Below, piece after piece: positions 20,728 to 31,896 of a stretch of DNA of 64,000 nt. Where the stretch lies: assembly GCF_000477435.1 (NCBI RefSeq), contig NC_022576.1, positions 372,001-436,000 on the forward strand, written 5' to 3'. The stretch comes from Candidatus Symbiobacter mobilis CR (GTDB lineage: Bacteria > Pseudomonadota > Gammaproteobacteria > Burkholderiales > Burkholderiaceae_C). The translations under genes and the position numbers were made by a program. The number at the start of each line of letters is the position of its first letter. The first letter of the stretch is position 1. The notes under the pieces are model-generated. The model saw only the letters and a list, made by a program, of their open reading frames with translations. It was not told the DNA's origin and searched no databases.

Positions 20728-22596
20728 TTATTCGGCAAAAGTCGCCCGGAAAGCATAGTTCCCGGGGGCCAATTGATCGAAAACGAGGGCTGCGCGATAC
20801 GGGTCGATGCTGCGCACGGTAGGCAAGCGGGTACCCACTTTGGTTCCGACGATGGTGGGCATCTTGCCTTTTTCTGGGGTGAACAGCGTCAACGATAGTC
20901 CGTATACCGGTTCGGCGCCCCGCACTGTCACGTCGAATTCCAGACGCCTACCCGCGTACACGGAAGACAGTTTCACCCGCTCCCGATCCTGCCACCAATG
21001 CGCCACTTCGCCCGCAGACGCCAGCCATAGCCTATCCCGGTAGCGCTGCACGTGTGCAAGGAACGGGGGCATGGCCGAACGCAACACGCTGCCCGGGCCG
21101 AAATTCTGGCTATGGACGCTGAGCAGGCCCAATGCTCCCATCGACTGCGCCAAATCGAAGTCGTCGATTAGCGCTTGCAGCGTGCGCTGCGAGTTTTGTT
21201 CCGCCAGCCCGAGGTTGATGTCGTCACGCTGTGTACGGGCCAGCACCACCAGCGATTGATCGGGCTTGATGCCTTCCAACTTCGCGATGAATGGCAGGCG
21301 TCCTTCTTGCCGGTTGGGGTCTGCGGCATGGTGGCGGATTCCGTGTTTTTGTAGCAAGATTTCTGTCGTGGGGTCGTAGCCTTCCGTGGGAGCACGGAAC
21401 CCGCGTATGTGCGACGTATCCCCCAGCACCGATTGCAACTGGGAAATCATGCGAACGATGCGTTGTTCCTGTTCCGTAGCCGGCTGGCCCCGAAAGGAGA
21501 CATGCTCGTCGCCGTGGTACCCGACTTCGAATTCGGCGGCCAACGCTTGCACGACTTGCGGATACTGCACGGCCAGGGAAGTCAGCAAATAAAAAGTCGC
21601 TTTTCCACGAATGTCCCGCAGCATGGCAGCGAAGTCGATCGCATGGGGGAACCCCTCTTCGGTATCCATCTCCAGAATATGCGCAGCTTGTACCCCGTTG
21701 GGCCATGCGGCGCGAACGATCACAGGCTCCCGACGTAGCCACCGCAGGGTGTCGTCGATGATCTGGTGGGCATGAAGGGGGCGTGCCTCCCAGCTCGTTT
21801 CCGCAAAGGCATACACCACAGCCCTGCCCACGCTGGGAGACGTCTCGGAATACAGTACCGCACCCTCTGCCTTGCGTTCTTCTTCCAGGATACGGGGCCA
21901 ATTCATGAACCGTCCTGCGATGGATTCCCCGCTAAGCCGCAACAGGGCTTCCGTTGTCTTGCCCATCCAGAGTCGGCTGCCTGCTTCCATTTGGGAGGAG
22001 ACAGGCATTTCCCCGTTCATCGTCAAGTGGCGGGATTCGGACTCGGCTGGGAGTTCCCCCACCCATTTCGCTCCCAGCCCTTCGAGGAACTTCCATCCAG
22101 CCCAATCTCCGGTGTCCGAACGGGTTCCCGTTGCCCAAGTGGCCAGCACCCCGCCTCCACGACTACGGAACCCCTCGATGGCCTCGCGTTCTTGCAGGCT
22201 CAGCGCCAGGGCGGAAGGCAGTACCAGCACCCCGGCGGGCAATGCTTGAAGGAGCGCAGGGTCATCAATCTCGTCGAAGGGGAGATTGCGCCCCTCGAAA
22301 TACTTTCTCCAGGGGTCGAGCAAGTTGGTGTAATTGCCGCCAATGCGCTGGAAGTACCGGGTTGTGTTGGGAGATGCGTAGAGAACGACCTGTTGCCCGG
22401 GCTGGGCAAAGTGGGCCATGGCGCCGGAAACGCCGATGACAGGAACCCGCCAGCCTATTTGCTGCATCGTCATGACGAAGATGAGCACGGCCCCGGCAAC
22501 GACCATGATGGCCAGCAGAGGCAGGTATAAGCCGATGCGCAAAAATGGCGATCGCCGACTGCGGCGGTCTTGGGAAGAGGAATCGTCGATGTCCAT
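20728..22596 (-). CDS. Membrane-anchored periplasmic NodB-like polysaccharide deacetylase
   Basis: This 622-residue protein has one N-terminal membrane anchor (about 20-45). An amidotransferase-like alpha/beta domain follows (about 50-300, with VLVLPSALALSLQEREAI and GGGVLATWATGTRSD). The NodB-homology region (about 305-490) has candidate metal residues in MDTEEG (D311) and the HxxxH pair H361/H365 in YHGDEH, with the third motif GFRAPTEGY. A C-terminal beta-sandwich ends the protein. It probably removes acetyl groups from an exported polymer at the outer face of the inner membrane, like PgaB but with a different anchor. It is the last gene of the bcsE-like operon and a full-length homologue of the lipoprotein at 28079. 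The start at 22596 was chosen over an upstream one. Confidence 0.75.
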   Translation of the reverse strand: MDIDDSSSQDRRSRRSPFLRIGLYLPLLAIMVVAGAVLIFVMTMQQIGWRVPVIGVSGAMAHFAQPGQQVVLYASPNTTRYFQRIGGNYTNLLDPWRKYFEGRNLPFDEIDDPALLQALPAGVLVLPSALALSLQEREAIEGFRSRGGGVLATWATGTRSDTGDWAGWKFLEGLGAKWVGELPAESESRHLTMNGEMPVSSQMEAGSRLWMGKTTEALLRLSGESIAGRFMNWPRILEEERKAEGAVLYSETSPSVGRAVVYAFAETSWEARPLHAHQIIDDTLRWLRREPVIVRAAWPNGVQAAHILEMDTEEGFPHAIDFAAMLRDIRGKATFYLLTSLAVQYPQVVQALAAEFEVGYHGDEHVSFRGQPATEQEQRIVRMISQLQSVLGDTSHIRGFRAPTEGYDPTTEILLQKHGIRHHAADPNRQEGRLPFIAKLEGIKPDQSLVVLARTQRDDINLGLAEQNSQRTLQALIDDFDLAQSMGALGLLSVHSQNFGPGSVLRSAMPPFLAHVQRYRDRLWLASAGEVAHWWQDRERVKLSSVYAGRRLEFDVTVRGAEPVYGLSLTLFTPEKGKMPTIVGTKVGTRLPTVRSIDPYRAALVFDQLAPGNYAFRATFAE

Positions 22597-22648
22597 GGCT
22601 GGGGTGCTCCGTGGGTAGCCTGTAATGCGCCAACGCACTGGCCTTGCT

Positions 22649-22873
22649 TCACACTGGTGGGGACTGGGCTACGTCCTGGGGGGCGGACGGGGTGTAGGGG
22701 GTCAGGAAAATTGGGTCCTGTACACCGCTGACGTTGGCGGTCGGGTCGAGCTTTGATCGACTGGGTTTGCGTTTGTCTCGCAATTTGAAGGCAAAAAAAG
22801 CGCCGACGCCGACAATCATCGTTCCGATCGTCGTCACGAGGATGACCGTTGCGAGGATGGAAATCAGATCCAT
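22649..22873 (-). CDS. Small single-pass membrane protein in exopolysaccharide operon (PgaD-like position)
   Basis: This 74-residue protein has one N-terminal transmembrane helix (about 4-30), then a basic stretch (LRDKRKPSRSK) and a Pro-rich tail. It is too short and divergent to assign by sequence. Its place directly after the GT2 synthase gene is where pgaD lies in PNAG operons, where PgaD is a small partner that stabilises PgaC and helps bind c-di-GMP. That role here is inference from position and size only. Confidence 0.6.
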   Translation of the reverse strand: MDLISILATVILVTTIGTMIVGVGAFFAFKLRDKRKPSRSKLDPTANVSGVQDPIFLTPYTPSAPQDVAQSPPV

Positions 22874-22930
22874 GTCAGCACTTCCTTATCGATGTCTTGT
22901 TGATTCTTGGAAGCTTGCGCCCAGGCTGCC

Positions 22931-24271
22931 TCATAGCTTCCCTTCGCGATCAAGCTTGCCCCACGTCATGGATTTTCCCCGCCATTCCTCGATCGTCGCG
23001 AATACCTTGGAAATGTCGGTGATATTGATGTAGAACAAGCGGAACATTACTGCGTACAGGATCATCGCAGGGTCTTCTTCTTCAACGATGACACAGTATG
23101 CAGCGGCCACGACGTCAAGCATGGTCAGTTGCAGCCACCAGAAAAACAAAAGGCTTGCTAGCCCCATCGACAGACTGACGTAGACGAAAAACAGATTGCC
23201 CAACAGGGTGGAGAAGGGCCACATGATCCCTTCAAACAGCATGTACCACAGGATAAAGCAGTTGATTCCGGACTTGCGTGGACTCCATAGCGCGTGGCTG
23301 TGCTTGGAAATCGCTTGCAGGATGCCACGGGTCCAGCGGTAACGCTGTTTGATGAGGTCGAGCAGACGACTTGGCGATTCGACCCATGCGATGGCGTTGG
23401 GTTCGTAGGCGATATGCCACCCCCGCATGAGCATTTTGAGCGTGAGGTCGCAATCTTCCGCAAAGGTGTCGTGGTCGTAGCCGCCCACTTGCTGTAACAC
23501 CGACTTGCGGAACAGACCAATAGGCCCTGGGATGATGTTGACGGAACGAATGAAGCTCTGCGCCTTGCGGGCCATCGCCAGCCCCTCAATGTATTCGAGG
23601 GATTGAATATTGGTCCAGACATTTTCCCTATTGAGCACCTTGACGTTGCCCGCTACTGCACCGATTGCAGGATTTTCGAAATGCCGCACGCAGACGCGCA
23701 GCGTGTTGCGGGACAACTTGGTATCGCCATCCATGTTGAGGACAAATTCCCCACGTGCGAGCGTCATGCCGGTATTGAGGGCCTCGGCTTTGCCTCCATT
23801 GCGCTTGGTGACAACCCGAACCCGCACGGTGCGGCTTTCGCGTGCGACGGCCATCGCTTTTTCGTAGGTGTCGTCCGTCGATCCATCGTCGACGACGATG
23901 ATTTCGTAGTTGGGATAGTCCAGTACCAGCAAGGCCCGCAAGGCAGGCTGGATCACGACCCCCTCGTTGTACGCAGGAACCACGACGCTCACCATGGGGA
24001 GCGATTCTTCTTCGCGGTACAAGGGGCCGGTGGATGCCCGTACCTTGTACAGGGACTCGATGTGGTCGAGGAACGAGTAAAAAATTAGCACTGCGTAGCG
24101 CAAAACCAGCAGCGACAGGAAGACGAGCAGGTATAGGGAAACCAGCGATAGCACATAGCCTTCGAACAACGCAGCAAGCGAACTTTCCTCATCGCTGACT
24201 GTCTGGTAGCTGGCAACGAGCAGCCAGCCCAAGCCAAACACGACCAGGAACGCCACGGCGTACCGCAGCAT
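22931..24271 (-). CDS. Processive family 2 glycosyltransferase, PgaC/NodC-like polysaccharide synthase
   Basis: This 446-residue inner-membrane synthase has two N-terminal helices (about 3-22 and 40-66), a GT2 catalytic core and three or more C-terminal helices. All processive GT2 motifs are present: VDDGS (D128/D129), DGD (181-183), AEDCD (272-275) and QRYRW (309-313). The size and lack of a C-terminal PilZ domain separate it from BcsA and fit PgaC or HasA-type enzymes that polymerise and export a beta-linked hexosamine chain. The ATG at 24271 has a GAGG ribosome site. The sugar donor is not determinable by eye. Confidence 0.85.
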   Translation of the reverse strand: MLRYAVAFLVVFGLGWLLVASYQTVSDEESSLAALFEGYVLSLVSLYLLVFLSLLVLRYAVLIFYSFLDHIESLYKVRASTGPLYREEESLPMVSVVVPAYNEGVVIQPALRALLVLDYPNYEIIVVDDGSTDDTYEKAMAVARESRTVRVRVVTKRNGGKAEALNTGMTLARGEFVLNMDGDTKLSRNTLRVCVRHFENPAIGAVAGNVKVLNRENVWTNIQSLEYIEGLAMARKAQSFIRSVNIIPGPIGLFRKSVLQQVGGYDHDTFAEDCDLTLKMLMRGWHIAYEPNAIAWVESPSRLLDLIKQRYRWTRGILQAISKHSHALWSPRKSGINCFILWYMLFEGIMWPFSTLLGNLFFVYVSLSMGLASLLFFWWLQLTMLDVVAAAYCVIVEEEDPAMILYAVMFRLFYINITDISKVFATIEEWRGKSMTWGKLDREGKL

Positions 24272-24332
24272 TTGCCTCACTGGCAAGAACTCCGTATCGT
24301 GAATCGATGAGACTGATCGAAAAACCGCTGCT

Positions 24333-25898
24333 TCAGCGCCATAGCGTTTCCCACTGCACGGTAGCCGATTGGGCGCGGTAGGTAGCGCCATCTCGCCAAC
24401 TGGCCATCGACCACAGCCCTGCCTGGATCGTGGTGTCCTTGGTCAAGGGGTATCGCCCCCCAAGGCTGAAGCTCCAGCTATTGCCGGCGTCGCCGTACAT
24501 CCGTGTTCCGACCTGCCCAGAGCCGTAGAGCAACCAATCCTGGATGAGCCACTCTCCAGTCAGGCCTGCAAAGGCCGTCCCCGAACCTTGCGATGGAGAC
24601 CAGTAATTGGGGGTGTTGAACGCTGCGTGGCGGGTCTCCAAGCCGAATATGGGCTTGACTTTGCCACCCCACACCGGCCATCCAGGCAGGAAGCTGGGGG
24701 AATAGCTCCAACTTGAGGTGGCAAGCTCGTTGCCGTCGGATATCTCGTAGTACTGGATGCGCCCGAACACGCTGCCCATCGTGAAGGAGAAGTTCGCATC
24801 GGCAGTCACAAAGCTTGCAGTCAGTTCCTTTTGCAAGGCATGTGGGCTACCGGCCATCTTGCCCCAGTACATCGTCCCGGTGGCAACGTGGAGCGCATCG
24901 TTGAAGAATTGCATGCGCCCTACGAGGAACAGCTTGGCTTGATCCCCGATCGGGGTGGACACTTCCACGCCTGGTTTGAATGGGAGGGTGGGATCGCGGT
25001 AGCGGAAAGTCAGCGACTCGACGTGTTCATTGGGCCACGGCATCGGCAACCAGTTGTGGTATTGGTCGACTTCGACTTCGAATATCCGCGATCCGCTGTC
25101 GTCCCGCCACTGGTGGCGAACGAAGGCCGATTGCGCTTGAATGTCCCCCGAATCGGAAGACGTACCCAGCCCGTATGTGGTGCGCGGGCGCAAGGCCGTA
25201 TTCGCTAACTCTAGCCCCTCCTTGGCTGTTTCATTGTCTGGATCCTTGGATAGGACGCTGCGGTACATGGGGCGTGCCAAATCATCACGCCCGCTCCACC
25301 GCTGCAGGTTTGCCAGACCCAAGGTGGCATCGATGGCATAGGGGCCACGCAGCAAAGGCTGGTACAGCGGAACGGCTTCGCGCATCTTGCCCGTCCACGC
25401 CAGGCTATTGGCCACTGCCAGTTGCAGTTCGTCGTCCATCGGCTCCGTGGCATGGAGTGTCGACCCCAGCTTTGCAACTTCGCGGTATTGCCCAGCAGTG
25501 AAGAGATCCATCACTTTTTTCTGGCTGGCCGTTCGGGTCACGGGTCGATCCACCTTCGGGCGGTACGGCGTCGGTGTGGGGACATACGTGAAAGAGGGCA
25601 GGAATGCAGCAACCGTCGCGGCAGTGGCTGCAGAAACCTGGACAGGCACTGTAGTCTCGGCGGCGTTCTGAGGGTTGGTCGCGTTCCCACCTTGGTTGGC
25701 ATGGGCTTTGTGGGTTGGGTCGACCTTTTGGCTTGGACCCTCTTGGTGCGGATTGGTCTGATCCGGAACATTGGTTGCCTGTGCTGCCTGTACTGCCCAG
25801 GCAGCCGGGAAAGAAGGCAAGCGTACCTGCGGCCCGGCAGCCCATAAGGGTGCGCAGCAGCACACTCCTCCTATCCACAGCCCATACAACCAACGCAT
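24333..25898 (-). CDS. Outer-membrane TPR plus beta-barrel protein (YaiO/PgaA-like exporter candidate)
   Basis: This 521-residue protein has a signal peptide ending near PLWA-A (about residue 20). A low-complexity Thr/Pro/Ala/Asn-rich segment (about 40-120) and two to three TPR-like helical repeats (about 125-235) follow. The last 280 residues alternate aromatic and polar positions as in a beta-barrel. The layout is a shortened version of PgaA or BcsC, which pass polymer through the outer membrane. It also resembles YaiO-type barrels. It starts nine bases after the bcsE-like stop, so it is operonic. The C-terminus ends in WETLWR, not the usual terminal Phe. Confidence 0.7.
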   Translation of the reverse strand: MRWLYGLWIGGVCCCAPLWAAGPQVRLPSFPAAWAVQAAQATNVPDQTNPHQEGPSQKVDPTHKAHANQGGNATNPQNAAETTVPVQVSAATAATVAAFLPSFTYVPTPTPYRPKVDRPVTRTASQKKVMDLFTAGQYREVAKLGSTLHATEPMDDELQLAVANSLAWTGKMREAVPLYQPLLRGPYAIDATLGLANLQRWSGRDDLARPMYRSVLSKDPDNETAKEGLELANTALRPRTTYGLGTSSDSGDIQAQSAFVRHQWRDDSGSRIFEVEVDQYHNWLPMPWPNEHVESLTFRYRDPTLPFKPGVEVSTPIGDQAKLFLVGRMQFFNDALHVATGTMYWGKMAGSPHALQKELTASFVTADANFSFTMGSVFGRIQYYEISDGNELATSSWSYSPSFLPGWPVWGGKVKPIFGLETRHAAFNTPNYWSPSQGSGTAFAGLTGEWLIQDWLLYGSGQVGTRMYGDAGNSWSFSLGGRYPLTKDTTIQAGLWSMASWRDGATYRAQSATVQWETLWR

Positions 25899-25907
25899 CG
25901 CAGCCCC

Positions 25908-27839
25908 TCAACCAGGTGAACCAGAGGACATCCGCGCCGACCTGCGGGCACGGGGAATGTTTTCTTTGGCGACGACGACCACTTCGCCGTCTCCTGCGTA
26001 TTTGTAGAGTACTGGCTCAGGATCGGGGTCAGGCCGCGCTACCTTGGCGGCTACTTTGACTGCTACGTTGGCAGCCACGGCTTCGGCGCGTGGTGACACA
26101 ACGGGGGGTGTAGGTTGCACGGGGGCCGTAGCAAGCTCGACAGTGCGATGGGTCGGCATTGTGCGCGTCATCGGCGGTGTCGCAGGCTGTGTGCTTTGCG
26201 CAGTGAGCGCCTCGACTTGCTCCGCACTGAGTGCAGCCAGCGCACTGTAATCGGGCAAGGTGCTACGCTGCGCCAAATGGGCCAGCGCTTCCAGTTCGAG
26301 CTGGATTTCTTCGGGCTGAACGATGAAGCGCAAGTGCGTCAAGATCGCATCCACTCCCGATGCGCTACTCCCCTCCGCACCCGTGGCATCGTGCCGCACT
26401 TTGAATAGACGTTCCAGAGTTTCCGGCAATACCGTTTGTGGACAGGCGTTGAGAAAGAGATAGCAACAGTGTTCGTCTGCCGTAATCAAGTCCCCAGGGC
26501 GGGAAATGCCGACGTTCGCAATGATGTCTGCCATCGGGATTCCCGTGCATGGCTGGCCGATGACCAGCGAGCAGGGGATGTTCAAGGTCGACGCACGATC
26601 AAGGATTTGCTGCGCCTCCTGCGCAAACCGCTGGGGCAGCAGATAGCCGTGCAAGCGCGTAGGCAGCACGCTGGAGAGGGCAGCCTCGAAGTTGATGTCG
26701 ACGTCACGGCTGAAAATTTGCCCTTTAAGCGAATCCAGCAACAGGGGATATCGCGCCAGGGGTACGTCGCGGTGAATGACCAGGTTCAGCCCCAGCCGTA
26801 GTAGCAGCGCTTCGTTCTGGTACCGCAGCGAGGCCGCTTTTTCCTGGACGATGATCCGGGCATAGCGTCCCATGCCCATGCGCAAGGTATGCACGGCTTC
26901 GGCGAGCTGTCGCAGGACGGTGTTGCGTTCGTAAATCAGGATGCATATTGCAGATCGCAGATTGCGCGTGGCATGCATCATCCCCACGAGGGTATCGACG
27001 CGCTGCCACACCCCGGGTGTTTGCTGTACCAAGGCATCCACGTCTGGGTCCATATAAAAGTACCGCGTTTCCCCCGTATCCGGCGGTGGTGCATCCCTGT
27101 CTGCTCTGGCTTCGGAAGCCGTTCCGTCATCTGTGTTGCCCATGCGTGCAGCGCTGGCGTGGTACAGACCCGCATCGGCGGTGGTCAACTGAAAGCTGCG
27201 CCCTGCGACGGTGCCATCGCGCGATTGCCAGTAGTCGAAGGACAGTTCCAGCCCATTGCGGGACGCAGCGAGGCGTGCGACTCCGTTGAGCTGATCCATC
27301 AGGGCATTGATCGTGTTGTCGTGGGTATCCGAGGTGCGTGTCAATACCAGCAGGATGGTGATGCGGCGTGCAGATGCCCAGCGATGCAGCACGGCCACTT
27401 GATCGAGAGCCAGGATCACATCGTGCAACGATAGGAGGTCATCGGCCTGATCGAAGAGCAGGTATCCCCCATCCTGCACGGAAAAATGGTCGAGTTCGGC
27501 GACGAAAGCATCAGCGCCGAAGCGGAAAATCTTCTTGGCAAACTCGTCTTGCAGCAGAAATACCTGCAACTGGTGCATGGAGATGGCGTGACCAACCTGC
27601 AAGGTGCGGTAGGACTCGATGCGCTGCAAGAACACTTCTGGCGGTGCGGGGAGCAAGAGCACGCAGGGAATTCCGCTGGCCAAGGCATCGCCCAGATTGC
27701 TCGCGAGCATGGGAAAGCGAGCAGCAGCCGTTTCGGCGACGAGGATGTATACGCCCCCCGCAGCCAGCCCATCCGTCAAATTGGGAAGCCCGGGGATGGC
27801 AAGCCGGACAGTTTGTGTGTCCGCAGGAAAGGTGTCCAT
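25908..27839 (-). CDS. bcsE: BcsE-family c-di-GMP-binding regulator
   Basis: This 643-residue protein matches BcsE. The N-terminal RecA-like pseudo-ATPase region (AGGVYILVAETAAARFPM) lacks a Walker A loop. A middle domain (about 285-400) contains VHTLRMGMGRYARIIVQEKA and SLKGQIFSRDV. The GIL domain carries the c-di-GMP motif RPGD at 447-450. In enterobacteria BcsE binds c-di-GMP and boosts cellulose synthase secretion. Here no bcsA, bcsB, bcsC or bcsZ lies in the window, and BcsE leads an operon with a PgaC-like synthase. A Pro/Ala/Thr-rich tail of about 110 residues ends in a basic stretch. Function as the c-di-GMP input of this operon is inference. Confidence 0.85.
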   Translation of the reverse strand: MDTFPADTQTVRLAIPGLPNLTDGLAAGGVYILVAETAAARFPMLASNLGDALASGIPCVLLLPAPPEVFLQRIESYRTLQVGHAISMHQLQVFLLQDEFAKKIFRFGADAFVAELDHFSVQDGGYLLFDQADDLLSLHDVILALDQVAVLHRWASARRITILLVLTRTSDTHDNTINALMDQLNGVARLAASRNGLELSFDYWQSRDGTVAGRSFQLTTADAGLYHASAARMGNTDDGTASEARADRDAPPPDTGETRYFYMDPDVDALVQQTPGVWQRVDTLVGMMHATRNLRSAICILIYERNTVLRQLAEAVHTLRMGMGRYARIIVQEKAASLRYQNEALLLRLGLNLVIHRDVPLARYPLLLDSLKGQIFSRDVDINFEAALSSVLPTRLHGYLLPQRFAQEAQQILDRASTLNIPCSLVIGQPCTGIPMADIIANVGISRPGDLITADEHCCYLFLNACPQTVLPETLERLFKVRHDATGAEGSSASGVDAILTHLRFIVQPEEIQLELEALAHLAQRSTLPDYSALAALSAEQVEALTAQSTQPATPPMTRTMPTHRTVELATAPVQPTPPVVSPRAEAVAANVAVKVAAKVARPDPDPEPVLYKYAGDGEVVVVAKENIPRARRSARMSSGSPG

Positions 27840-28078
27840 TGGTTTAGCGTGGCAATCGGTTCGCAGTCGATGATAGAGGAAACGCTTTCACGCAAACGAG
27901 GGCTTAGGGATTTATGGGTTTATGGATTTTTCAAATCCGATTCCGGTTGGCGAATACGTCGCCTGCTGCCTTGTAGACTCTGCCGTGCTTACGTAGTACT
28001 GCCGTGCTGGATTCCGTAGGCTTTCGGCGAATCTGCCATTCACAATTCCGCCAGAGATTTCTTGCCGGATTTCTTTCC
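27840..28078. promoter_or_regulatory. Divergent control region between the two exopolysaccharide gene sets
   Basis: This 239-base gap must carry the promoters of both the bcsE-led operon and the lipoprotein-algF-algJ set. At 27872-27886 it contains GATAGAGGAAACGCT, whose ATAGAGGAAACGCT core is identical to the unit of the repeat array upstream of cheW (34538-34646). A GCAAACG follows shortly after. The stretch 27905-27935 is AT-rich and could hold a -10 element. No transcription-factor site could be named. Confidence 0.45.
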
Positions 28079-30082
28079 ATGAAAAACCGTTTTCTGCTTC
28101 TTCTGACCCTGTGGTGGATTGTCGTATCCACGGCGGGTTGTTCTCTCCTCCCTGCTTCCCGCAGTGCCCCAACGGCTGCCGCCGCTGCCGCGCAACGAGC
28201 GGCGTCGGCACCCAAGTCTGCGCAGCACAACGCGGAGGACTTGTTTTTGCCTGCCTCGGCGCTGGAGGAACCCGTGCCTACAGCAACGCTGCCGCGTTCC
28301 CCAGCCTTCGATCCAGACCGCTTGCTACCCCGCTTCGGCGCTGCACGGATGGATCAGGTGCTGCTGTACACCTCTGCCGCCAACGCGGTATGGATGCGTG
28401 CCGCAGGGCTCGACCCTGCGCAGGCGCCCAAGCTTTGGGAAGGGTTCCTGCGCAAATACAAGATTCCGTATCGCAAGCTCTCTGTGGTCTCGCAGCTTGC
28501 CCAGGCGCCGGTGGGGACGCTGGTGCTTCCGTCCCAGGTCGCTCTCGACGCGCAGGAGCGCGACGCAATCCTGGCGTACCGGCAACGTGGGGGCAGCGTA
28601 TTCGCCACATGGCTGGCCGGTACCCGTTCGCCGGATGGGAAATGGCTGGGGCTGGGTTTTTTGCGCGATACCTTGGGCGTAACCTTGCTTGGCGATACCC
28701 GGGATGACGACACCATGTTTTTTCTGACCCTGTATGGTGATTCCCCCGTCACCCACCATCTCTCTGCGGGAGCGCGCGTGTGGCTGCCACGCACTCCGGG
28801 GTGGTACCCGCTACGGTTAGCGGGCGCACCCGCTGCGGCGCACATGATGGATTGGGGACGATCCTTCGAGGCACACACCCCGGGAGGTCCTATTCTGTAT
28901 GACGAAAAGCGCTACGAATCCGGGCACCTATCTCGTTCCGTGGTGTGGGGTGTTCCAGAAGCAGTTTGGGGCGGAGCCGATGCGCGTTTCCTCGAAGCCA
29001 TCCTCCACAATGGCTTGTTGTGGACGTTGCGCCAGCCCGATGCCTACTTGGCAACGTGGCCCTATCCCTATCGCAGTGCTTTTGTCGTCGCGATCGAAGG
29101 GCACGATGGTGTGACCGATGTGGACATCGACTTTGCGCGCATGTTGCGGAAATCGGGTCTGCGTGCCACGTACTACCTGCCCAGCGAAGAATTGGATGCT
29201 CCGGAAGTTGTCGAGACGATGCAATCGATTCTTGCCGACGGGTTCCATGAGTTTGCCTACTATGGCGATCACCTCAAGGGCTTTGCGCGGCAGACCCCCG
29301 AAGTGCAGGCCGAGCGGTTGGAAGCGATGCGCGATGCTGTTCGCAAAGCTGGGTTGCCCGTGGAAAAGGATGCGGGGTTTCGTGTGCCGTTCGAGTCTTA
29401 CGATGTACATACCAGCGCGCTGCTGGCCCAAATGGGGTTTGGCCACCAACTTGCTTTTATGGATGTGACCGATGCCTGCGTTCCGAAAATCGCTCCCACT
29501 AACCTCATGGGGCCTAAGCCTGCTATCCCGCTGGTGTTTCTGCCCAGAACCCTGATGGGGCTGGAAGATTGGCTGCTTGACAACCCAGATACCGGCGTGG
29601 ATGATTTCTTCACGATGCTCGACCGCAATGACCGCATGGGTGGGCTGTCGATCGTGACCCTGCCTACCGCATCCATGGTACCGGCTGAACAGCTTCGGCT
29701 GTTTTTCTCGACGGCCCAAGCCATGCCTCCCGAGGTATGGCGTGCGCAGGCAGGGCAAGTTGCGAGATGGTGGACGCAGCGGGAGCAAACCTCGGTGCGT
29801 ATCGAACCTATCGTCTCTGCTGCAAGCAGGCTTCAATCAAGCATGCTCCAACTCATTGTGACGGTACCCGAAGGGGCGACATACAGTCCTGCCGTGTATC
29901 TTCATCTTCCCAGCCCGGATGTGACTGCAAGACTGTCCCCGGTGGCATCTTCCACGCCTACTCCAGCGATCCACACTGTCGATCCGTGGCGGGTGGCGGT
30001 ATCGCTGGAAGGCATTCCGCCCGGTACGCACCGCTGGAACCTGGACTTTCCCCTCCATCGCGAGGTTTTTTCCATCCACTGA
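28079..30082 (+). CDS. Lipoprotein paralogue of the NodB-like deacetylase, active-site residues degenerate
   Basis: This 667-residue protein has a lipoprotein signal ending in STAGC (C21) followed by Ser, predicting outer-membrane attachment. An Ala/Ser-rich linker, an amidotransferase-like domain (with TLVLPSQVALDAQERDAILA and GGSVFATWLAGTRS), a NodB-like domain and a beta-sandwich tail follow in the same order as the protein at 20728. The HxxxH pair of that paralogue is replaced: YHGDEH becomes YYGDHL near residue 395. The first motif reads EGHDG instead of DTEEG. It may bind polymer or assist its paralogue without deacetylating. The ATG at 28079 gives the clean lipoprotein signal. Confidence 0.72.
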   Translation: MKNRFLLLLTLWWIVVSTAGCSLLPASRSAPTAAAAAAQRAASAPKSAQHNAEDLFLPASALEEPVPTATLPRSPAFDPDRLLPRFGAARMDQVLLYTSAANAVWMRAAGLDPAQAPKLWEGFLRKYKIPYRKLSVVSQLAQAPVGTLVLPSQVALDAQERDAILAYRQRGGSVFATWLAGTRSPDGKWLGLGFLRDTLGVTLLGDTRDDDTMFFLTLYGDSPVTHHLSAGARVWLPRTPGWYPLRLAGAPAAAHMMDWGRSFEAHTPGGPILYDEKRYESGHLSRSVVWGVPEAVWGGADARFLEAILHNGLLWTLRQPDAYLATWPYPYRSAFVVAIEGHDGVTDVDIDFARMLRKSGLRATYYLPSEELDAPEVVETMQSILADGFHEFAYYGDHLKGFARQTPEVQAERLEAMRDAVRKAGLPVEKDAGFRVPFESYDVHTSALLAQMGFGHQLAFMDVTDACVPKIAPTNLMGPKPAIPLVFLPRTLMGLEDWLLDNPDTGVDDFFTMLDRNDRMGGLSIVTLPTASMVPAEQLRLFFSTAQAMPPEVWRAQAGQVARWWTQREQTSVRIEPIVSAASRLQSSMLQLIVTVPEGATYSPAVYLHLPSPDVTARLSPVASSTPTPAIHTVDPWRVAVSLEGIPPGTHRWNLDFPLHREVFSIH

Positions 30083-30096
30083 TCCCCCCTATTCCC

Positions 30097-30792
30097 ATGC
30101 TGCACCTCTCTCATCCTCAACGTATCGTTTCGTGGATCTGCTGCGCGCTGCTTGGCAGCACCGGTGCCCAGGCCCAGCCTGCGGGCCAGCTCTACGACCC
30201 CGTACCCCCAGCAGACTCTGCCTACCTGCGCTATGTGTTGTCTGCGGTGCAAGGCTCGCTGGAAGTCAGCCTGGGCGATGCCGTGCATGGGGTCGATGCC
30301 CAAAAGGTCAGCGCATACCGCATCGTCCGGGCTGGTAGTCACCGCGTGGGGGTACGTGCTGCGGGTTCACGTAGCCCCTACCGGTATATCGATGTGGAAC
30401 TCACTCCCTCTGGCGCGACGACGCTGGTATTTCCGGATGCTGCAGGGAGTCAACCTCCCTTGCGTTTTCAGGATCAGGCCAATACCAACAGGCTCAAGGC
30501 ACGTATCACGCTATACCACTTGGCCGATAAGGCAGGCCCTGTGCATCTGCAAGCAGGTACCCGAACGGTGTTTTCCAACGTTGCATTCGGCAAGACGGCC
30601 AGCATGCAGGTCAACCCGGTTTCGGTCACTTTCGACGCCATGGATGCCGGGAACCCGACCAACAAACTTGCTACGGCATCCGTTTCCTTGCAGCAGGGGG
30701 GCACCTACAGCTTATTCCTGCTGCCCGGTACGCTACACCCCACTTTGTTGACTTTGCAAAACCAGACAGAACGCTATACCCCCAAGCCCTGA
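30097..30792 (+). CDS. algF: AlgF-like periplasmic protein of polysaccharide O-acetylation
   Basis: This 231-residue precursor has a signal peptide ending near AQAQ (about 28). The mature part begins QLYDPVPPADSAYLRYVLS, matching the start of AlgF (LYGPSAPKGSSFVRVYNA pattern). It later has a NPVSVTFDA block with a C-terminal strand-rich region. AlgF is needed for O-acetylation of alginate, and WssG in acetylated-cellulose clusters is similar. It starts 14 bases after the lipoprotein gene and 36 bases before the AlgJ-like gene, so the three form an operon. The symbol is by family, not proven function. Confidence 0.72.
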   Translation: MLHLSHPQRIVSWICCALLGSTGAQAQPAGQLYDPVPPADSAYLRYVLSAVQGSLEVSLGDAVHGVDAQKVSAYRIVRAGSHRVGVRAAGSRSPYRYIDVELTPSGATTLVFPDAAGSQPPLRFQDQANTNRLKARITLYHLADKAGPVHLQAGTRTVFSNVAFGKTASMQVNPVSVTFDAMDAGNPTNKLATASVSLQQGGTYSLFLLPGTLHPTLLTLQNQTERYTPKP

Positions 30793-30828
30793 TTTCCCCT
30801 GTGTTTATTCCTGACGATGAGGTTGACT

Positions 30829-31896
30829 ATGCACACTTTTTCCTTTCGTTCCATCCTCCGTACTGACCTTGCTGCGCTTGCGTTCTGTGGAGTTGTCTTG
30901 GTGCTGTGCGCACTCATGCTGCCTGGTGCGCAGGCTGCCCCTGCCCACGCCAGTCCCGTTGTGATAGGCAAGGACGGTTGGCTCTTCACTCCCTATGAAT
31001 TCGCTACCGAAGCCGACAAGGTCGATACCGAAGCCAGCCTTTCCATGCTGCAGAAAGCCCATGCGTTGTTTGCGCAGCGGGGCATCGCGATGGTGCTGGT
31101 GCTCATTCCACACAAGATTCGTGTGTACGCGCACCATCTGCCCGATGACAAACCCTTGGACGCATACACCGCGCAGAAATATGACTACGCTGTGCAGACG
31201 CTGCGTGCAGGGGGGGTGCCCGTCGTGGACCTGCACAAGCCCTTCTTGACGAGCCCCTTGCGTGACAGCGATACCCTCCTGTTTTTCAAGACGGATACGC
31301 ACTGGACTCCAACAGGGGCGATGCTGGCTGCCGAGAGAGTCCGAGCGACTTTCGACGCCGACCCCGCCTTGCGCGCAGCCTTGGCGGCGACTCCGCCTGC
31401 CCCATTCCTTCTCCACCGGGATGCCAAACCGCGAGCCAGCCGCACGCGGGATCTGGCGCGTTTGCTTCCTGCTGGAACCACTGCACCGCCTATCGAAAGA
31501 ATCCTGTACTACCGCGTAGAGCGGGAAGGGGGGGCGGGAACAGCCAATGCAGACCCCTTGGCAGCGGCATCTACTGTCGCCATCACGGCCATTGGAAGCA
31601 GCTTCACCTTTTCAGGCACGGGGTACCCGGACGCCTTGCGCTATACCCTGCAGCGCGATGTGCTCGACATCTCGCTCCCTACTGACCAAGGCCCTTGGTA
31701 TGGGATGGATCAATACCTGCGTGACGCTTCTTTTCGGGAAACGCCGCCCAAGATCATCTTGTGGGAAATCCCGGAGCGAGAGTTGCGTTCTCCGCCCAAC
31801 TATCCTTTCCGTGATCCGCGCTATATCGTGGACAACGCCAAATGGCTGGAATCGCTCACGGAACTATTGCGCCCCCAAGGCGCTGCGGTTCGCTGA
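30829..31896 (+). CDS. algJ: AlgJ-like SGNH O-acetyltransferase component
   Basis: This 355-residue exported protein has a signal peptide ending near AQA-AP. The SGNH-like fold shows IGKDGWLF, the catalytic pair D156-x-H158 in KTDTHWTPTG and the likely nucleophile S258 in IGSSFTF. The C-terminus has YGMDQYLRD and LWEIPERELRSPPNY. AlgJ and AlgX move acetyl groups to polymer in the periplasm after an MBOAT protein (AlgI) exports them. No AlgI is in the window. The ATG at 30829 is preferred over one at 30817 because GAGG lies six bases upstream. It is homologous to the gene at 61877 but lacks that protein's extra C-terminal domain. Confidence 0.78.
   Translation: MHTFSFRSILRTDLAALAFCGVVLVLCALMLPGAQAAPAHASPVVIGKDGWLFTPYEFATEADKVDTEASLSMLQKAHALFAQRGIAMVLVLIPHKIRVYAHHLPDDKPLDAYTAQKYDYAVQTLRAGGVPVVDLHKPFLTSPLRDSDTLLFFKTDTHWTPTGAMLAAERVRATFDADPALRAALAATPPAPFLLHRDAKPRASRTRDLARLLPAGTTAPPIERILYYRVEREGGAGTANADPLAAASTVAITAIGSSFTFSGTGYPDALRYTLQRDVLDISLPTDQGPWYGMDQYLRDASFRETPPKIILWEIPERELRSPPNYPFRDPRYIVDNAKWLESLTELLRPQGAAVR

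Follow-up and report, generated by a model that had tools for sequence, protein, structure and literature searches.

A conserved exopolysaccharide module of Candidatus Symbiobacter mobilis CR and its possible partnership with a cellulose-type scaffold whose BcsA lacks catalytic motifs

We analysed a 64,000-nucleotide stretch of the Candidatus Symbiobacter mobilis CR genome (hereafter the window; C1:372001-436000, where C1 is the contig of this single-contig, 2.99-Mb genome), which carries a locus combining a BcsE-type protein with a family 2 glycosyltransferase (GT2), a candidate exporter, a deacetylase and O-acetylation genes. We propose, at roughly even odds (about 0.5), that this locus forms one half of a cellulose-type secretion machine that has been refitted to make another polymer, and that synthesis, export and trimming fall to this half. 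That polymer is probably of the N-acetylglucosamine (GlcNAc) type, partly de-N-acetylated and O-acetylated. Its synthesis may be controlled by cyclic diguanylate (c-di-GMP), and the two halves of the machine may act jointly. We take the second half to be a bcs gene set elsewhere in the genome, and the case for a single machine is built on linkage, on co-occurrence, and on the joint disappearance of BcsA catalysis and of BcsC.

The locus is genuine rather than a chance assembly. All the parts named in a preliminary description of this DNA were found at it as family matches or open reading frames. Scanning named genome contigs with the GT2 yielded 204 candidates, of which the best 80 loci were taken (L-numbers below denote stretches or loci read, and G-numbers genomes). 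The 28 Burkholderiales loci consist of 26 of the Burkholderiales type (GT2 identity 68-80%; most are metagenome assemblies with labels such as Rhodoferax, Polaromonas and Comamonadaceae, and one is a named strain, Noviherbaspirillum malthae), G251 and the window. In these 28 loci, several of which end at contig edges, tblastn matched the tetratricopeptide repeat (TPR)/barrel protein, the GT2 (the search query) and a small one-helix protein 28 times each, the deacetylase D1 26 times and BcsE 24 times; the count of 25 for the D1 homologue D2 is inflated by D1 and was not used, and 15 separate D2 genes were identified. The preliminary description had allowed for a chance assembly, in which the GT2 would belong to classical PgaC and the neighbours would be conserved together in no other genome; the neighbours are in fact conserved together across the Burkholderiales loci, and the GT2 lies outside that group (see below). 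Within the order the module is rare: of 300 genomes sampled, two, our own among them, gave a D1 match.

GT2s of 47-52% identity turn up in a further 29 loci, whose labels include Melioribacter, Ignavibacteria, KSB1, Chlorobiota and Calditrichaeota; together with L102, from G408 in a different order of the same class, they make up 30 non-Burkholderiales loci. Here the GT2 was matched in 30, D1 and the small protein in 27 each, the TPR protein in 26, a KaiC-like protein in 20 and a GH9 hydrolase in 18, while tblastn found BcsE and BcsB in 0 of the 30, many of these loci being cut by contig ends. L102 itself reads KaiC-like protein (weak, E 0.058), TPR protein, GT2, small frame and D1. A genome-wide search found no BcsB in any of the 28 Ignavibacteria-type genomes that carry a similar module. 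The preliminary description saw in the locus a hybrid of cellulose, poly-N-acetylglucosamine (PNAG) and alginate parts; because a like module exists in other phyla without BcsB, its core is no recent join of this kind. It should be mentioned that the GH9 gene lies upstream of the KaiC-like gene in its 18 loci (e.g., L034:1819-3501), so that the polymer hydrolase seems to vary by lineage, and that in many Ignavibacteria-type loci D1 is followed by a PAS/histidine-kinase/receiver hybrid and an fn3 lipoprotein (e.g., L034:15144-18293). The record titles of L013, L045 and L046 (Moraxellaceae, Tenericutes) do not match their gene content, which suggests that bins were mixed or mislabelled. The gene order of L045 is that of L046, and the two are contigs from one bin.

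The putative second half of the machine is best introduced through its BcsA, which in our own genome (L092:7178-9175) has lost DxD, TED, QxxRW and the PilZ RxxxR; BcsB of the same set lies at C1:1745406-1747226. We call a BcsA dead when its full-length open frame has neither TED nor QxxRW. Dead BcsA was seen in 18 of the 22 relatives judged and in our own genome, or 19 of 23 (G310 and three relatives without a BcsB match were left out of the judging, and some bcsB fragments remained unassigned). The dead frames have 665-735 amino acids, apart from that of G314, which is cut by a contig end at 533, and they are still BcsA by sequence, as the L113 copy against E. coli BcsA illustrates (E 7.2e-76). 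As controls we read 20 bcsB stretches belonging to 19 genomes of the order sample in which D1 was unmatched (20 chosen from the 38 genomes with a BcsB match). BcsA appeared in 17 of these stretches and in none of the other three; all 17 keep DDG, DxD, TED and QxxRW, and three of the 17 are without the first PilZ arginine in the alignment. Dead BcsA is therefore found in 19/23 module genomes versus 0/17 controls (p 7e-8), or in 17/21 if our own genome and G314 are excluded (p 2e-7). BcsB is similarly enriched, being present in 23 of the 26 relatives searched (27 were intended, and L007 was left out) and in our own genome, versus 37 of 300 above the cut-off in the order sample (24/27 versus 35/298, p 3e-17). 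Because the genomes are related, the p values of the dead-BcsA comparison overstate independence.

The dead BcsA appears to be kept rather than decaying. Its dN/dS is 0.15-0.26 (six pairs, four genomes), versus 0.07-0.13 for intact BcsA, which indicates that purifying selection persists in relaxed form, and the dead rows stand on one side of a branch from the intact ones; in this tree, which is unrooted and has long rows, that falls short of showing a single origin. The loss is paired with that of the exporter. No match to PF05420, the C-terminal barrel of BcsC, was found in our own genome, and only 11 of the 27 other module genomes (G408 included) have one; our reading of the bcs loci attributes this scarcity to the dead BcsA. 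The BcsC barrel was found in 10/10 genomes with an intact BcsA versus 1/13 with only a dead one, our own included (p 1e-5), and the sole exception, G302, matches only in part (105 bits), on a different contig. In the scaffold sets read, GH18 is present and BcsZ was unmatched; the GH18s keep D-x-E in 13/13 aligned.

These observations bear on two other explanations. The module might modify or accompany cellulose, with BcsE serving an active BcsA, AlgF and AlgJ acetylating cellulose, and the GT2 adding a minor co-polymer. AlgF/AlgJ-type acetylation of cellulose is known from Wss systems, the BcsB enrichment described above fits this explanation as well, and the module does lie beside intact bcs genes in L016, L023, L024, L028 and G251. 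It is nevertheless improbable, as 13 module genomes, including our own, show only a BcsA without TED and QxxRW, and 12 of these 13 are without the BcsC barrel. Alternatively, the two halves may be independent systems, in which the module, governed by a BcsE of its own, makes a separate GlcNAc-type polymer, and the dead-BcsA set simply accompanies it and serves elsewhere, e.g., in assembling another envelope structure. The 28 Ignavibacteria-type genomes with like modules and no BcsB speak for such independence, as does the fact that several genomes carry the dead set on a different contig or at a distance from the module (about 1.35 Mb in our own). On the other hand, the 17 controls, which have no module, showed no dead BcsA, BcsE itself is of the Bcs type, and the scaffold lies beside the module in several relatives. 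In G302, G304 and G307 the dead set, GH18, a membrane-bound O-acyltransferase (MBOAT) and a second AlgJ run directly into AlgJ-AlgJ-AlgF-D2 and BcsE; G311 and G309 are arranged similarly but not identically, and G323 has the dead set beside the module. In Noviherbaspirillum malthae CC-AFH3 one contig holds both the module and the dead BcsA, and an intact BcsA is located elsewhere. We regard two independent systems as unlikely, though the strongest competitor to a single refitted machine.

Several facts weigh against a single refitted machine and keep its probability where we have put it. DxD survives in 5 of the 19 dead BcsAs, and the PilZ RxxxR likewise in 5 of 19. The only BcsA found in the module carriers G251, G321, G322 and G324 is intact, and in G308, G315, G316 and G320 the module stands beside an intact cellulose set with the dead set elsewhere (dead and intact copies occur together in G308, G315, G316, G317, G320 and G323). 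The pieces in our own genome are scattered over three sites, near 0.39, 1.74 and 2.26 Mb. The full DxxDxDxE motif was not found in the GH18s, tblastn matched AlgJ in only 14 and AlgF in only 13 of the 28 Burkholderiales loci, and L030 and L059 keep BcsE, barrel, GT2 and small gene with D1 missing. Finally, many of the genomes are metagenome assemblies, so that absences in them are weak evidence. As a side observation, a GH18 gene adjoins the small gene in L030 and L059, whose BcsAs are intact.

The synthase is a relative of PgaC that stands apart from it. Its motifs are retained in 56 aligned module GT2s, with QRYRW(T/S)RG in 56/56, in agreement with the PgaC-like processive GT2 of the preliminary description as far as relationship and processivity motifs go; it does not, however, join PgaC itself. 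Its best NCBIfam match, PgaC_IcaA, reaches 225.8 bits, below the equivalog cut-off of 422.3. A first GT2 tree of 69 rows did not resolve at its base. A 37-row tree, from which the rows for BcsA, NodC, Acinetobacter, Chromatiaceae, Burkholderiaceae, Chitinophagaceae and Prevotella were dropped and in which the module was represented by 8 of its 28 Burkholderiales rows and 10 of the 29 others, placed the 18 module GT2s on one side of a branch (98/96) and separated 14 PgaC-side rows at 100/100, and a grouping of PgaC with the Burkholderiales GT2s was rejected (approximately unbiased test, p-AU 0.025). On score and tree position we reject PNAG membership. A conventional PNAG (Pga) system whose accessory parts have been exchanged would account for the best family match and for one operon with a deacetylase and a TPR porin, as in pga; it is very improbable given these results, the unmatched PgaA porin model (16.5 bits against a cut-off of 366.65), and the small protein, for which hhalign finds no PgaD match. 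The nearest GT2s to the module clade in the 37-row tree are five GT2 domains from larger proteins, one of which, a Kocuria protein annotated deacetylase/GT2, lies beside a chitinase. These neighbours suggest an N-acetylhexosamine polymer, and the substrate is most likely uridine diphosphate (UDP)-GlcNAc. As for the small protein, its helix is strongly conserved, and homology to E. coli PgaD (hhalign probability 0.1) or to BcsF (0.5) is unsupported.

BcsE, of which our genome has a single copy, consists of a KaiC/RecA-like N-terminal domain that has lost Walker A and a REC*/GGDEF*-type C-terminal part with RxGD, and it aligns to the E. coli BcsE structures 6tj0, 6ybb and 9fnn. In E. coli BcsE, a domain predicted to be RecA/KaiC-like is described as preceding REC* and GGDEF* (PMC7439463). 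The module protein scores 186.7 bits with NCBIfam TIGR03369, below the equivalog cut-off of 244.65, and a tree split of 100/100 separates 18 module BcsEs from 9 others, namely those of eight cellulose-bearing Burkholderiales genomes and one of E. coli (two were trimmed to 700 residues). The c-di-GMP motif RxGD (RxxD) is present in 18/18 module and 9/9 other BcsEs, and the module BcsE may bind or sense c-di-GMP. BcsE was found in 25 of 26 module relatives; a chance neighbour is ruled out by this separate clade and by its presence in 24 of the 28 Burkholderiales loci.

In the Ignavibacteria-type loci, a KaiC-family protein occupies the place of BcsE, with PF06745 in 18/18 aligned; that of L049 also matches REC (2.6e-5) and, weakly, GGDEF (0.003). 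The N-terminal domains of BcsE and of this family gave a moderate hhalign match (72.8%, E 3.2e-5), and 4 of the 17 module BcsEs give a weak PF06745 match (best E 0.046). A match between the C-terminal parts is unsupported (hhalign probability 0.2; 0.04 over the whole length), the 50 Foldseek rows shown for a KaiC-like model are KaiC and similar proteins with BcsE not among the matches listed, and no RxGD is visible in the KaiC-like alignment, so that c-di-GMP binding is not suggested for the KaiC-like proteins. A common origin of the two is plausible on these profile similarities. Jointly, and a little less confidently than for the refitted machine alone, one may suppose that a GT2 of another subfamily took over a cellulose apparatus, with BcsA kept as a selected pseudo-synthase scaffold, export passing from BcsC to the TPR barrel and the hydrolase perhaps becoming GH18, and that BcsE, as a relative of the KaiC-like ATPases found at the same place in GT2 modules of other phyla, regulated this GT2 module earlier than, or alongside, its function in cellulose synthesis.

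The other parts of the locus can be read in the same terms. The AlphaFold2 model of the exporter candidate shows seven TPR-type helices and 16 strands (mean predicted local distance difference test score 75.8; residues 1-110 under 50), and the best-matching solved structures are E. coli BcsC (9b8a, E 5.5e-14) and PelBC. With a template modelling score of about 0.46, the likeness to BcsC is one of fold and not of close superposition. N. malthae has a second TPR/barrel copy downstream of D1 (L031:13881-15149, minus strand).

D1 appears to have an N-terminal alpha/beta domain before its NodB/CE4-type domain, its profile search finds CE4 deacetylase structures, and its five active-site residues (D, HxxxH, R, H) are all kept in 21 of 22 rows, the exception being L023; it is thus predicted to be an active de-N-acetylase. 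D2, which the preliminary description called a lipoprotein deacetylase homologue, is indeed a homologue of D1, but all five residues are kept in 0/15 rows, with the second histidine of HxxxH and the last histidine lost in 15/15, and it is a pseudo-deacetylase. Among the Ignavibacteria-type deacetylase rows the full active site is found in 1 of 29, a Calditrichaeota copy; together with D2, this means that catalysis is not the universal role of the family. Our genome has a third D1-type paralogue with HxxxH lost (L087:8610-10526, minus strand; C1:498610-500526), with no polysaccharide genes nearby in the stretch read. Extra D1-like copies lie by the bcsD end or AlgJ genes in relatives (L113:15497-17290, plus; L019:973-2730, minus; L017:4822-6588, plus), and those of L017 and L019 retain the active-site motifs.

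The AlgJ-like protein finds AlgJ 4o8v by phmmer (E 2e-26), and the AlgJ-type motifs DxHW and GSS are kept in 24/24 aligned rows (over 300 residues); it is probably an active O-acetyltransferase. No MBOAT (AlgI-type) gene is present in the locus. The only MBOAT match of the genome (C1:2256790-2257374) lies beside an AlgJ-like stretch, and MBOAT adjoins AlgF/AlgJ/D2 genes in L031, L088 and L113-L116.

Positions and supporting matches are collected in Table 1. On the minus strand the order is BcsE, TPR/barrel, GT2, small gene and D1, with gaps of 9 bases between BcsE and barrel, 57 between GT2 and small gene and 10 between small gene and D1; the barrel gene overlaps the GT2 gene, given the GT2 frame as called. 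On the plus strand D2 is followed by the AlgF-like and AlgJ-like genes. A sigma-70 scan gave 1 site versus a mean of 3.8 in shuffles.

Table 1. Genes of the locus (positions in the window) and the bcs set elsewhere in the genome
Feature	Position	Strand	Basis
BcsE, module-type	25908-27839	minus	PF10995 225.9 bits, cut-off 25
TPR + 16-strand barrel, candidate outer-membrane exporter	24333-25898	minus	AlphaFold2 model, structure matches
GT2, predicted polymer synthase	22931-24391, start codon uncertain	minus	D, DxD, ED, QRYRW motifs
74-amino-acid protein, one membrane helix, candidate GT2 partner	22649-22873	minus	Open reading frame and conservation
D1, membrane-anchored NodB/CE4-type deacetylase	20728-22638	minus	PF01522 42.4 bits, cut-off 23.1
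D2, lipoprotein homologue of D1	about 28079-30082	plus	PF01522 26.7 bits
AlgF-like periplasmic protein	about 30097-30792	plus	PF11182 44.5 bits, cut-off 34.4; also DUF4397
AlgJ/AlgX-like SGNH O-acetyltransferase	30817-31896	plus	PF16822 177.2 bits
bcs set	L092:4607-13479 = C1:1740607-1749479		BcsD (PF03500, 61.5 bits), two MinD-like BcsQ, dead BcsA, BcsB, GH18

Put together, the GT2 and its one-helix partner would make the polymer at the inner membrane. D1, anchored in that membrane, would strip N-acetyl groups from it, and the lipoprotein D2, catalytically dead, would probably bind or guide the chain. AlgJ and AlgF of the locus would O-acetylate the polymer together with the distant MBOAT and second AlgJ, and the TPR/16-strand barrel, if the model is right, would export it in place of BcsC. 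BcsE would sense c-di-GMP and couple the synthase to a scaffold of BcsD, BcsQ, BcsB and dead BcsA.

Each part resembles a known system. With the E. coli-type Bcs system (PMC7439463, PMC8461298) the machine shares an RxGD-bearing BcsE, BcsB, BcsQ and the BcsC-like TPR/16-strand barrel fold; it differs in the motif losses of its own BcsA, in having no BCSC_C match, in its separate GT2, deacetylase and O-acetylation genes, and in a BcsE of a distinct clade. E. coli pgaABCD likewise has a PgaC-related GT2, a small membrane partner, a deacetylase and a TPR porin, whereas here the GT2 is outside the PgaC clade, PgaA and PgaD are unmatched, and BcsE and O-acetylation genes are added. Alginate O-acetylation (AlgI/AlgJ/AlgF) shares the SGNH AlgJ/AlgX family, AlgF and an MBOAT in the genome, but these are used here with a GT2 and BcsE module, and the MBOAT lies elsewhere in our genome. 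The nearest GT2 relatives are NodB-GT2 and larger GT2 fusions (Kocuria, Deinococcus, Sulfitobacter), which are single fused proteins without BcsE; the larger ones we take to be GH18-NodB-GT2. PelADA of B. cereus and Agd3 have an alpha/beta domain before a metal-dependent deacetylase domain (PMC13254593), as D1 appears to have, although the D1 profile matches CE4-type structures and not these two. By description only, E. coli Nfr shares a GT2, a TPR barrel and c-di-GMP control, and a rare relative of it carries alginate-type acetylation genes; unlike the module GT2, the Nfr synthase has its own MshEN domain, and its proposed substrate is UDP-N-acetylmannosamine (PMC8669469). No description of the module was found in the open-access literature searched, outside which lie most subscription papers and all bioRxiv-only preprints.

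If our proposal is true, the locus shows a polymer machine after an exchange of its catalytic core. Such a machine would separate the scaffold parts of the Bcs system from the chemistry parts and supply a selected pseudo-synthase for study, and it would suggest an origin for the KaiC-like domain of BcsE. It would also lead one to expect, in bacteria of the Rhodoferax, Polaromonas and Comamonadaceae types, a polymer under c-di-GMP control that has yet to be described, and a cultured carrier, Noviherbaspirillum malthae CC-AFH3, makes this reading testable.

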